Shown: positions 1,789 to 10,805 of the stretch, piece by piece
How the letters are laid out: every line of letters begins with the position of its first letter
How positions within the stretch are numbered: the first letter of the stretch is position 1
Virus record (IMG/VR): IMGVR_UViG_3300008450_000282
Coordinates: 1-30,754 of that record
Length of the DNA stretch: 30,754 nucleotides
Reading direction: 5' to 3' (one strand)
Source: a virus
Translations under genes and position numbers: made by a program
Notes under the pieces: model-generated
Told to the model about the DNA's origin: nothing
Databases searched by the model: none
Seen by the model: the letters and a program-made list of their open reading frames with translations, nothing else

Positions 1789-2617
1789 TTACCACTCACA
1801 TCCGGCGCTATCAGCGTCAAAGCTCAAAACGATTATTAGCGGAACACCGCGTGACTACTGGGCTAAGCACGTCGATCCCGATCGCGCCGAGTTCAAGCCG
1901 ACTGATGCAATGCGTCAGGGCAGCTTGGTCGATTGCCTGATCACAGAGCCCCATGAGTACGCGACCAGGTATTTGGTTGCCCCGCAGTGTGATCGCCGCA
2001 CCAAGGAAGGAAAAGCGATCTGGACTGAGTTCCAGGCCGAAGCCGCCGGTCGCGAGGTGATCACGCGCGACTGGGAAGACAATGCACTGCGTGTCGTGGA
2101 AGCGCTGATGCGTGATCCAGATGCCGCGCCATTGCTAAGGGACGGCCAAGGTCAGGATCCACATTTCTGGCACGACAACCTGATGGAAGTCGACTGCCGG
2201 TATAAACCAGACGTGGAGCATCCCGATCGCGGGATCTTGGTTGACCTTAAAAAGGCACGGTCCGCGAGTCCCCGTATGTTTGCGGCGCAGTCGTATTCAC
2301 TGGCGTATGACCTGCAGATGGCGCATTACAGCGCCGGCTGGACGGATCGCTATGGCGCACCACCAGAACAGTGCATCCTGATTGCATATGAGTGGCAATG
2401 GCCGCACAACATCAGCGTCAACGTGCTGAGCGCTGACCTGATCGAGGAGGGCCACGTTAGGCGTGATGAGGCAATCACGCTCGTGAAACGCTGCATGGAA
2501 GCAGATCAGTGGCCATCGTGGGGCACGGTTGAGATGGATGTTCCACGCTGGGCGCATGCAGATGATCCTGCGAATGCGACCGATGCTGATGATCTCGAAC
2601 TGGAGGGTCTGGAATGA
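1781..2617 (+). CDS. RecE/exonuclease VIII-like PD-(D/E)XK nuclease
   Basis: 278 residues, GTG start overlapping the previous gene. The N-terminus (LSASKLKTI) and the core match the DUF3799/RecE-like family of phage 5'-3' double-strand exonucleases, which make 3' tails for single-strand annealing. The catalytic core is visible: E136 (MEVDCR), KPD with D144, and VDLK with D155 and K157, followed by YDLQMAHY (176-183), the Q-x-x-x-Y motif of the RecB-nuclease superfamily. The N-terminal GxxxHxxxxEP motif is altered: residues 47-57 read GSLVDCLITEP, with Asp51 where His is usual. No annealase of the RecT or Erf type is recognised next to it; the SSB-like gene downstream may cooperate. Confidence 0.85.
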   Translation: MSDYHSHPALSASKLKTIISGTPRDYWAKHVDPDRAEFKPTDAMRQGSLVDCLITEPHEYATRYLVAPQCDRRTKEGKAIWTEFQAEAAGREVITRDWEDNALRVVEALMRDPDAAPLLRDGQGQDPHFWHDNLMEVDCRYKPDVEHPDRGILVDLKKARSASPRMFAAQSYSLAYDLQMAHYSAGWTDRYGAPPEQCILIAYEWQWPHNISVNVLSADLIEEGHVRRDEAITLVKRCMEADQWPSWGTVEMDVPRWAHADDPANATDADDLELEGLE

Positions 2618-3387
2618 ACAGGCCAGCACCTGGAGAGATGATCGCCGTTTGGTTTTCGTGCGGCGCCGCTAGCGCAGTCGCCGCCAAGCAAACAATTGAA
2701 AAATATGGCAATACTAATTTAATAAAAATAATCAACAATCCAGTTGCGGAAGAAGACGAAGACAACCGCCGTTTTTTAGTCGATGTTGCAAATTGGCTTA
2801 ACTACCCAATAGAAACGGCAATTAACTCCAACTTCCCTTCCGCATCGGCTGTTGAGGTTTGGAGCAAAAGGAAGTTCATGTCTGGTCCGCTTGGCGCTCC
2901 TTGCACTATTGAATTAAAAAAACATGCTAGGCAGCAATGGGAGGCAGTCAATAGGCCAGACTGGCATGTACTTGGGTTCACCTATGAAGAAGCGCATCGC
3001 TTTGATCGTTTTATCCAAACAGAGCGCTCAAATGTATTGCCAATTTTAATAGACAATAAAATCACCAAACAAAATTGTTTTGACATTCTATTGAGCGCTG
3101 GCATCCAGCTTCCGCGCATTTATGCACTTGGCTACCCAAATGCCAATTGCATTGGATGTGTAAAAGCTACATCTCCGACCTATTGGAATCATGTTCGCGA
3201 AAAGCATCCCGCCATTTTTGAGCAACGCGCTAAGCAATCGCGTCAAATTGGCGCCAAGCTTGTCCGTGTTAACAATCAACGAATTTTCCTTGACGAACTG
3301 GACCCAAGTCACATGGGAAGGCCGATGAAGAACTATGACTTTGAATGCGGAATTTTTTGCGAAGAACGCAACGGAGGTGTGGAATGA
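2614..3387 (+). CDS. PAPS reductase-like / PP-loop ATPase superfamily protein
   Basis: 257 residues, ATG overlapping the exonuclease stop, with GGAGG about eight bases upstream. An N-terminal FSCGAAS (residues 14-20) is a PP-loop pyrophosphate-binding motif in which the usual SGGxxS reads SCGAAS. C97, C179xxC182 and C245/C249 form a conserved-looking cysteine set that could hold metal or an Fe-S cluster. This matches phage proteins labelled phosphoadenosine phosphosulfate reductase-like. Members of the superfamily include assimilatory reductases, DndC of DNA phosphorothioation and tRNA thiolases; which reaction applies here is unknown, and no other dnd genes are present. Base composition is far more AT-rich than its neighbours, suggesting recent acquisition. 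Confidence 0.75.
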   Translation: MNRPAPGEMIAVWFSCGAASAVAAKQTIEKYGNTNLIKIINNPVAEEDEDNRRFLVDVANWLNYPIETAINSNFPSASAVEVWSKRKFMSGPLGAPCTIELKKHARQQWEAVNRPDWHVLGFTYEEAHRFDRFIQTERSNVLPILIDNKITKQNCFDILLSAGIQLPRIYALGYPNANCIGCVKATSPTYWNHVREKHPAIFEQRAKQSRQIGAKLVRVNNQRIFLDELDPSHMGRPMKNYDFECGIFCEERNGGVE

Positions 3388-9047: not shown

Positions 9048-10133
9048 TCAGTAAGGCCAAGTCAGCTTAGGACGCCCTGCACGAATTCCCGTGTGAATAA
9101 ATCCCCTAGGGGCTCCTAGCCCGGTGCTGTACGGCCAGTGTCGGACGCACCATTCCTGAAGCTTGTAAATATCTACCCCCTCAAGGAGCCAGTCCACAGC
9201 TCCCACATTGGGAGCATTAAACAGATGCTCGCTACCAGAAGCGCCACCCACCGATGCATTGATCGCGGGCGGCCTGAATCCTGAAGTAATAATTATTGGC
9301 TTGTTGCCAAACGTCGAGCGAGCCCGCTCAAGAAATGCTGCCAGTTCTGCAGCGGTATCAACTTGATGTTGCGCAACAAATCTTCGTGCTTCTTGGTCAA
9401 GCGCAAATTCGCCTAGTCGGATATGCGGCGTCAACCTTGCCGAGAACGAGCTAGCAGGCGTCAGCTTGGCAGGATCCTGTTGAATCTCAGGTTGCTTCGG
9501 CAGACTGGACCGCCAGAGCTCACCTTCTGCGCGCCGCCGACGCAACAAGCCCGCTTCAACGTTTGTGCCTGGATTTCGATAAAGCTCGAATGCAGCCGGC
9601 ATTGCATTCCAGTCTCGTTCGCGCAGGCGCTTGCTGATGGTTTCAAAGCCAGCAGCGCCATAAAAGCCGCCGCCCAGGTTATATGCAAAATCCACCAGGG
9701 CAGACTGCTGGCCATCGTTCATTTCAAGCCAGAAAGGCACGCTGGCTGCAAGCTTGGCGGCAATTTGATCAACCTCAGTTCGCATGAACATATCAGCTTC
9801 AATCACGGTGATCTTGTCACCACGACTCACGGGGCGGCCACCGGGATAGCGAGTGGTGCCGTACCCGATTGTGTACGGCTCTGCGCCGGACAGGGGGTCG
9901 GGATATGCGGTGAGATGACAGCCTTCAAATTCTTTGATCAGCTTGAAAGCGGCGGCGTAATCACCTTGCTTGCCGCCTTGGCTCCAAGTCTTGAACCAAG
10001 CTTGATCGCGGCCAAGGATATGAGGGTTGACCTTATTGATAGCTTCTTCAAGCTCGCTCAATCCAGCAGATTGATGCGGCAATGCTTTGTAGTACTTAAA
10101 CAGATCAAGCAGGCGGATTTTGTTTTGCGTCAT
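9048..10133 (-). CDS. Two-domain endolysin: GH24 lysozyme plus M15 peptidase
   Basis: 361 residues. Residues about 55-210 are a T4-type GH24 muramidase: E70 in FEG, D79 in YPDP and T88 in YTIGYGT form the E-D-T catalytic triad, with a three-residue insertion between D and T relative to T4 lysozyme. After a Pro/Gln linker, residues about 235-361 are an M15-type peptidase: SGFRPP (284-289), SEHLF with H303, AVDW with D314 and FIHTG with H347 are the expected zinc ligands. It would cut both glycan and peptide bonds of peptidoglycan. No signal peptide is present, so release needs the holin-like proteins just upstream. Confidence 0.9.
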   Translation of the reverse strand: MTQNKIRLLDLFKYYKALPHQSAGLSELEEAINKVNPHILGRDQAWFKTWSQGGKQGDYAAAFKLIKEFEGCHLTAYPDPLSGAEPYTIGYGTTRYPGGRPVSRGDKITVIEADMFMRTEVDQIAAKLAASVPFWLEMNDGQQSALVDFAYNLGGGFYGAAGFETISKRLRERDWNAMPAAFELYRNPGTNVEAGLLRRRRAEGELWRSSLPKQPEIQQDPAKLTPASSFSARLTPHIRLGEFALDQEARRFVAQHQVDTAAELAAFLERARSTFGNKPIIITSGFRPPAINASVGGASGSEHLFNAPNVGAVDWLLEGVDIYKLQEWCVRHWPYSTGLGAPRGFIHTGIRAGRPKLTWPY

Positions 10134-10386
10134 TGCTCCAGGGGGCGTGAATACTCATTGCGCCACCAAGGAGGCGGCTGTCATCTGTTTGCTGCTCGCC
10201 GTCTAGCGGTTCGTTAACAACAACAGGTTTTGGTGTTAACGGATGATCCGCATGCCAATCTTCAATGGCGCGATCCAAGCGAGGTTGAAGTGTGGCGTGA
10301 AATTTGTAATCTTGCGCAGATTTACGCAGATCATCACGCCAGTCTTTATTGCCAAATTGCGCCAGCCAGATGGTGTCGGATCTCAG
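10105..10386 (-). CDS. ORF without ordinary start, likely made by -1 frameshift or CTG start
   Basis: The frame holds 93 residues from CTG 10386, beginning LRSDTIWLAQFGNKDWRDDL, and its stop lies within the endolysin start. It reads as a genuine soluble charged protein, but there is no ATG, GTG or TTG before residue 38. Two explanations fit: initiation at CTG in the CTGA overlap with the preceding stop, or -1 frameshifting at CCCAAAG (10395-10389) from the 45-aa holin-like frame, giving a 138-residue membrane-anchored fusion. A single-base assembly error is the third possibility. Function unknown; its place suggests lysis. Confidence 0.6.
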   Translation of the reverse strand: MRSDTIWLAQFGNKDWRDDLRKSAQDYKFHATLQPRLDRAIEDWHADHPLTPKPVVVNEPLDGEQQTDDSRLLGGAMSIHAPWSNDAKQNPPA

Positions 10387-10520
10387 CGCTTTGGGAACAG
10401 CACTTTCAAAGCTTTGAGAATGAGTTGCACCCAGGAGTTTTCCTTGACGGGGAGCAAGGCAATAATTTCAGAGCCGGCTGCGATAACAATTGCGATAACG
10501 GCAGCAGTGGTGGGATCCAT
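10383..10520 (-). CDS. Holin-like small membrane protein (45 aa)
   Basis: A short frame starts MDPTTAAVIAIVIAAGSEII and continues with an amphipathic segment (NSWVQLILKALKVLFPKR). One transmembrane helix covers about residues 4-24, followed by a charged turn (PVKEN) and a second amphipathic helix with a basic end. Position directly before the endolysin block and this topology point to a holin or pinholin component. From memory, similar 45-50 residue peptides occur in cyanobacterial phages. The last codons form a possible -1 slippery site. Confidence 0.65.
   Translation of the reverse strand: MDPTTAAVIAIVIAAGSEIIALLPVKENSWVQLILKALKVLFPKR
10389..10395 (-). other. Candidate -1 frameshift heptamer CCCAAAG
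   Basis: On the minus strand the holin-like frame ends TTC-CCA-AAG-CGC-TGA. C-CCA-AAG fits the X-XXY-YYZ rule, and slipping back one base gives CCC-AAA-GCG-CTG, exactly the open frame of the next ORF. No strong downstream stem-loop is seen, which weakens the call. Confidence 0.45.
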
Positions 10521-10544: not shown

Positions 10545-10805
10545 CTATGGTCGCGGCTGTTGGCGGCCAACTGTCATTTCAATCTGACGCACTCTGGTTT
10601 CCAAATCACTAAGCCTTTCTTTGGAATCGTTTTTAAGTTCTTGAATATCGGCTGCAACAGTGCTGACCGATTGGTCTAGCTTGGCGACCTGCATAAAAAG
10701 ACCGCCCAAGCCCAAGACGGCTGCGGTCAAAAGGGCTGGAACGGCTTGATTAAAAGGGTTGTCGGGTGGTTTGGCAGTAATCGGTGCCTCGTCGTGGTGA
10801 TCCAT
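10545..10805 (-). CDS. Membrane-anchored coiled-coil protein, holin or lysis accessory (86 aa)
   Basis: A polar N-terminus (about 18 residues) precedes one hydrophobic segment (AVPALLTAAVLGLGGLFMQV, about 21-40), then a long heptad-patterned helix rich in Asp, Glu, Lys and Leu (about 44-78) and a basic tail. This N-anchor plus coiled-coil layout, upstream of the holin-like peptide and endolysin, suggests a holin, antiholin or spanin-like lysis helper. The order of segments is the reverse of XhlA proteins (coiled coil first, then membrane segment). Confidence 0.65.
   Translation of the reverse strand: MDHHDEAPITAKPPDNPFNQAVPALLTAAVLGLGGLFMQVAKLDQSVSTVAADIQELKNDSKERLSDLETRVRQIEMTVGRQQPRP

Follow-up and report, generated by a model that had tools for sequence, protein, structure and literature searches.

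Organization of the locus

A short open reading frame (ORF) for a membrane peptide is followed, upstream of an endolysin gene, by a second ORF that lacks a start codon. The question is how this second ORF is translated, and whether the pair has a function in the viruses that carry it. The window, i.e. the complete 30,754 nt stretch of IMG/VR virus record IMGVR_UViG_3300008450_000282, contains the pair on the minus strand between the tail-fibre region and the endolysin gene (Table 1). The peptide ORF starts with the ATG at 10520 and ends with the codons TTC CCA AAG CGC TGA. Direct reading of the DNA agreed with the preliminary description, which had recognized CCCAAAG as a slippery heptamer of the pattern X-XXY-YYZ at the end of a 45-aa membrane peptide. 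A -1 slip on this heptamer would enter the next ORF exactly as claimed there and yield a long form of 138 aa, composed of the peptide residues 1-44 and 94 residues of the -1 frame, which reads ALRSDTIWLAQFG... after the slip. The length of 93 residues given earlier for the second ORF holds for a count from the CTG at the stop overlap; counted from the slip, the ORF has 94 residues. The reported lack of a start codon was observed as well: the -1 frame is free of ATG, GTG and TTG from -20 to +16 codons of the heptamer, in a scan performed on L005, a contig identical to the window. The 3' end of the -1 ORF includes the ATG of the endolysin gene (10133), an overlap of 29 nt. In another part of the window, a PAPS reductase-like gene (phrog_424, 2614-3384, plus strand) adjoins an exonuclease VIII-like gene (1781-2614).

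Table 1 Features of the peptide/-1 ORF locus in the window
Feature	Position	Strand	Remark
45-aa membrane peptide ORF (short form), ATG to TGA	10383..10520	-	sequence MDPTTAAVIAIVIAAGSEIIALLPVKENSWVQLILKALKVLFPKR
Slippery heptamer C CCA AAG	10389..10395	-	in phase with the peptide
TGA stop of the short form	10383..10385	-	separated from the heptamer by one sense codon (CGC)
-1 frame extension, heptamer to TGA at 10107-10105	10105..10395	-	without ATG, GTG or TTG near its beginning
Putative frameshift product, 138 aa	10105..10520	-	proposed from conservation across homologous loci
Endolysin (phage lysozyme and peptidase M15)	9048..10133	-	
86-aa protein upstream of the peptide	10545..10805	-	one transmembrane (TM) helix, then a coiled-coil-like tail

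Conservation of the slippery heptamer

About 215 IMG/VR loci were gathered with the -1 ORF, the endolysin and the fusion of peptide and -1 ORF as queries; named relatives are phages deposited in GenBank. Removal of identical copies left 149 distinct peptide-bearing loci, and the -1 ORF was present in 137 of them. An X-XXY-YYZ heptamer was located at the peptide end in 135 of these 137 loci and was missing from all 12 loci that lack the -1 ORF, a class that is under-sampled because the loci were recruited by their likeness to one of the three queries. Four carriers of the -1 ORF (L155, L141, L142, L148) had been missed by the regular expression and were assigned by eye from the sequence; the script-only table before this reassignment read 131, 2, 4 and 12 (Fisher P 1e-12). 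The commonest heptamer was AAAAAAG (89 of the 131 loci counted), followed by CCCAAAG, CCCAAAA and GGGAAAG. The distance from heptamer to stop was one sense codon in 130 of 131 counted loci and zero codons in one counted locus as well as in three T7-like isolates. The alignment of homologues, proposed earlier as a check, thus revealed that heptamer and missing start are both kept, with a heptamer identity that shifts under the X-XXY-YYZ rule.

Codon usage explains few of these heptamers. Expected frequencies were derived from the codons of long ORFs in these loci: a heptamer was present in 51 of the 52 cluster representatives versus 5.2 expected (Poisson-binomial P ~8e-52), and after clustering at 70 % it was 19 of 19 versus 2.1 (P ~8e-20). 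Both P values presuppose independent representatives, an assumption that holds only in part for related phages. In loci with AAAAAAG, the preceding codon was GGA, CGA, AGA, GCA, TCA, CCA or CAA, encoding Gly, Arg, Ala, Ser, Pro or Gln. A varying amino acid written with an invariably A-ending codon is the expected mark of a selection on the slip site rather than on the peptide. The CCC group invariably had TTC for Phe and CCA for Pro; homologues of the peptide that lack the -1 ORF often had FPK written as TTC CCC AAG, TTC CCT AAG or TTT CCC AAG. Judged from this pattern, the frameshift arrangement is a conserved and selected feature.

Three loci contained two overlapping heptamers, AAAGGGC and AAAAAAG. 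A consensus-like fusion query retrieved one more contig with A AAA AAG and the -1 ORF (L236, MAG 'bacterium TMED88'). Two sequence types had an imperfect heptamer together with the -1 ORF, L068/L205 (one contig, GGGAAAAAG) and L088/L089 (GTA AAG AAG); possible causes are slippage on a single codon, decay or a base error. The junction of L068/L205 is GGG AAA AAG and the -1 ORF is kept. In L115, a locus without the -1 ORF, the TGA of the peptide directly overlaps the ATG of the endolysin (ATGA).

Distribution and annotation

Among isolated phages, the heptamer together with a start-less -1 ORF was identified in S-CBS1, S-CBS3, KBS-S-2A, S-EIV1 and the T7-like S-B28, 7B11-B and WH11-B. In these T7-like phages the pair is located near the small terminase gene and not at the endolysin. 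The P60-like podoviruses lack the heptamer; their homologue of the peptide is longer and encoded in frame. In the records examined, the -1 ORF was either unannotated or begun at an internal start (S-CBS3 gp22, S-CBS1 gp23, a hypothetical protein in S-EIV1). The long form has thus been missed or truncated in these public entries, and the annotation can be corrected.

In the open-licence literature, judged mostly by abstract, no title or abstract dealt with a peptide/-1 ORF arrangement of this kind. The paper on S-LBS1 compares S-CBS1 and S-CBS3 and mentions neither a holin nor a frameshift (PMC6157547). The PRFect paper lists lysins among the genes with known frameshifts and does not mention holins, cyanophages or Synechococcus (PMC10885494). 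In none of the annotations found, nor in the papers found as far as their abstracts tell, did this arrangement of the gene block beside the cell-wall-cutting enzyme appear. With this pair, the list of phage genes bearing a programmed -1 frameshift signal would grow by a conserved member that is present in at least three groups of cyanophages: siphoviruses, S-EIV1 and T7-like podoviruses.

A similar peptide was observed in the Microviridae genome MH572431 from Ciona, which has an unannotated 46-aa ORF (L144:1489-1626) between the scaffold and replication genes. It resembles the peptide of L086 with 76 % identity over 25 residues, SEIIALTPLKSNS being identical, at a weak E of 0.003-0.02. This likeness could reflect a lysis-type peptide that the cyanophages have in common with small ssDNA phages, or chance.

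The -1 ORF as protein-coding sequence

Pairwise comparison of the -1 ORFs gave a median dN/dS of 0.20 (1785 pairs) with most changes at third positions, a substitution pattern indicating that the -1 ORF is under purifying selection. In the -1 extension, a predicted long helix is followed by a conserved LLGGAMSIHAPW tail, and the residues PW of a C-terminal SIHAPW motif are among the invariant ones. In S-B28, 7B11-B and WH11-B the -1 ORF terminates in GWSISLTSPW or GWSISLTAPF, a motif of similar type. Since these T7-like isolates have it without an overlapping endolysin start, the motif does not result from the overlap with the endolysin gene. The structural model of the -1 domain, a long helix and a short pair of strands, was of low confidence (pLDDT 67.6), and a search of the BFVD viral structures with it gave no match below E 4.

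A motif ETG.FG(D/E)(E/D)GWSI, similar to the C-terminus of the S-B28 -1 ORF, occurs in other cyanophage proteins: L233:967-1362 (P-RSM1), L234:967-1353 (S-SSM7) and L235:1038-1287 (AG-345-A17). The profile comparison of the P-RSM1 protein with the window's family was not significant.

Mechanism of decoding

Three features of a frameshift gene coincide at this locus: a heptamer in phase with the peptide, an open start-less -1 ORF under coding selection, and, among the homologous loci, a frequency of the heptamer beyond codon usage. A programmed -1 ribosomal frameshift is very probably the explanation for the pair. Most ribosomes would read the 45-aa peptide through to its stop. A fraction would slip back by one base, with tRNA-Pro and tRNA-Lys re-pairing on C CCA AAG; in the relatives this would be Lys/Lys on A AAA AAG or Gly/Lys on G GGA AAG. 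The slipped ribosomes would miss the stop, which follows after one more codon, and extend the chain by 94 residues of the -1 frame, so that one start would yield a short and a long form with a common membrane anchor in a fixed ratio. In many viruses infecting Synechococcus-type cyanobacteria, a -1 slip appears to add a longer, membrane-anchored version to a short membrane peptide.

An alternative, raised for CTG already in the preliminary description, is that the -1 ORF is initiated separately, at CTG or a different weak start, and that this initiation is coupled to the termination of the peptide by the CTGA overlap. The window indeed has CTG at the overlap, as have 68 of the 137 loci, and another 9 have TTG; the remaining 60 have CTA (47), GTA (7) or TTA (6). 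Moreover, 30 loci including S-CBS3 (L149) presented no start-like codon, even with CTG, ATT, ATC and ATA considered, from -20 to +16 codons of the heptamer. CTG initiation, present as an option in just half of the loci, was thus ruled out as a family-wide mechanism. A start codon of its own is found for such an ORF in the more distant phages S-CBS2 and S-CRES3: here the ORF following the peptide begins with GTG or ATG, and no heptamer is present. The second ORF of S-CBS2 is related to the -1 family (hhalign probability 95, E 4e-8); that of S-CRES3 matched the family directly with a weak score (probability 9, E 0.004) and the S-CBS2 protein with 47 % identity. The heptamer and a separate start codon thus seem to substitute for one another. 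Separate initiation leaves unexplained the retention of the X-XXY-YYZ pattern as well as the absence of the heptamer where the -1 ORF is absent or self-starting, and we regard it as improbable.

Slippage of the RNA polymerase on the A run, instead of the ribosome, would draw on the six A residues of AAAAAAG in most relatives. Bacterial polymerase slippage normally requires longer homopolymers. The window and its group have merely CCCAAAG, others GGGAAAG, and the strict X-XXY-YYZ phase is the rule for re-pairing of tRNAs, which makes transcriptional slippage highly improbable. A sequencing error or a decayed gene, two ORFs that are really one, has nothing in its favour beyond the broken frame itself and a negligible probability: the one-base error, for which a check had been proposed, is excluded because the same break recurs in 137 distinct loci, among them the published isolates named above, which belong to more than one phage group, and the dN/dS is low.

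Stimulatory RNA elements were sought around the slip site. In 52 representatives, sliding folding scores peaked just 3' of the heptamer, where the mean z at +20 was -1.24 and 40 % of the values were below -1.5; at all other offsets the mean z was between +0.4 and -0.84. Strong stems were present in some siphovirus loci with AAAAAAG. No conserved downstream stem was found in the CCCAAAG group of the window, and the structure of the window itself had a z of about +0.5, in accordance with the earlier remark that a strong stimulatory stem is not visible. Upstream of the heptamer, pairing with the anti-Shine-Dalgarno sequence was in slight excess (35 % versus 16 % below -5 kcal/mol).

Putative role in lysis

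For the peptide, a TM helix (residues 3-22), an amphipathic helix (29-41) and a basic end were predicted, with a hydropathy of 2.5; its AlphaFold model had a mean pLDDT of 79.5. By these predictions it is a small membrane protein with a TM helix and a basic C-terminus, as is typical of holins. It also adjoins the endolysin gene as holin genes do, except in the T7-like isolates: of 137 loci with sufficient flank, 126 had the endolysin within 800 nt downstream of the peptide. Upstream, a TM ORF of 55-120 aa was present in 81 of 136 loci with enough flank; the 86-aa upstream protein of the window gave weak matches to Rz-like spanins (E 0.02). The positive charges after the TM helix suggest a cytoplasmic location of the C-terminal part of the long form.

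Assignment as a holin by family membership was rejected. The peptide had no match in Pfam and matched PHROG 22542 (E 7e-10) and PHROG 15106 (E 0.01), families of unknown function; the holin family phrog_1356 was hit at E 0.007 by 3 of the 29 members scanned. These 29 include L115, whose row had wrong coordinates in one alignment and was dropped from later ones. No family match put a name to the peptide or to the -1 part.

Position and membrane character make a control of lysis the likely role of the pair. As a best guess, the short form would be holin-like, and the long form, with the same anchor, would partner or regulate it; it is plausible that the frameshift sets the ratio of two lysis proteins. 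We infer the slippage and its frequency, as well as a holin-like function of the short form and a membrane-tethered lysis function of the long form. Tentatively, the pair may act as a lysis clock by recoding, the short form being the holin and the long form, with its C-terminal domain, the regulator or partner. The frameshift rate would then fix the ratio of holin to partner, and hence the timing of lysis, in several cyanophage groups. Since the viruses concerned kill abundant photosynthetic cells and mostly have the pair in their lysis region, the pair provides a simple, testable model of how translation could set the ratio of lysis proteins. The family includes its own natural controls: loci with heptamer and start-less ORF, loci with neither, and loci with an own start without the heptamer.

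Rather unlikely, in our estimation, is a real frameshift whose products are not lysis proteins, e.g., a membrane or host-takeover factor encoded beside the endolysin. Such a function would fit the location near the small terminase gene in S-B28, 7B11-B and WH11-B, the lack of a named-holin match beyond phrog_1356, and the T4-like cyanophages, where the proteins with a related C-terminus sit among unrelated genes. The frequency of the downstream endolysin and the upstream TM ORF argues against it, as do the P60-like phages, in which the longer in-frame homologue lies beside or near endolysins.

Comparison to known systems

The tail assembly chaperones of the lambda G/GT type arise from a -1 slip on an X-XXY-YYZ sequence close to where a short ORF ends; the products are a short protein and one extended at the C-terminus. 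The proposed decoding by frameshifting resembles them in the position of the slip, the two forms and the fixed ratio; it differs in the nature of the short form, a 45-aa membrane peptide encoded beside an endolysin, and in the stop, 0-1 codon after the heptamer. The dnaX gene of Escherichia coli (tau/gamma) has the heptamer A AAA AAG and a stop very near the slip site, and its shifted product is the shorter one. Heptamer and close stop are shared with most relatives studied here, whereas their shifted product would be longer, and an upstream Shine-Dalgarno site and a 3' stem are at most partly present. In dual-start holins such as lambda S105/S107, one gene encodes two membrane proteins, and the second start adds an N-terminal extension. 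For the cyanophages, too, two membrane proteins with a shared anchor are proposed, the ratio of which is a possible timer; here, however, the extension would be C-terminal, about 94 aa long and added via frameshifting, and the holin function is putative.

Among the protein families, PHROG 22542 covers the peptide alone (49 positions), unlike the long form, and the P60-like members of PHROG 15106 have a longer in-frame tail without a heptamer. Another parallel is S-CBS2 gp049/gp048, where a small membrane peptide of similar sequence (LLGGMLEIKAPWYD versus LLGGAMSIHAPWSN) precedes a related C-terminal domain; gp048 differs as a separate gene with its own GTG start, a different N-terminus and no heptamer. 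The same gp048 is connected by phrog_6464 with the P-RSM1 protein.
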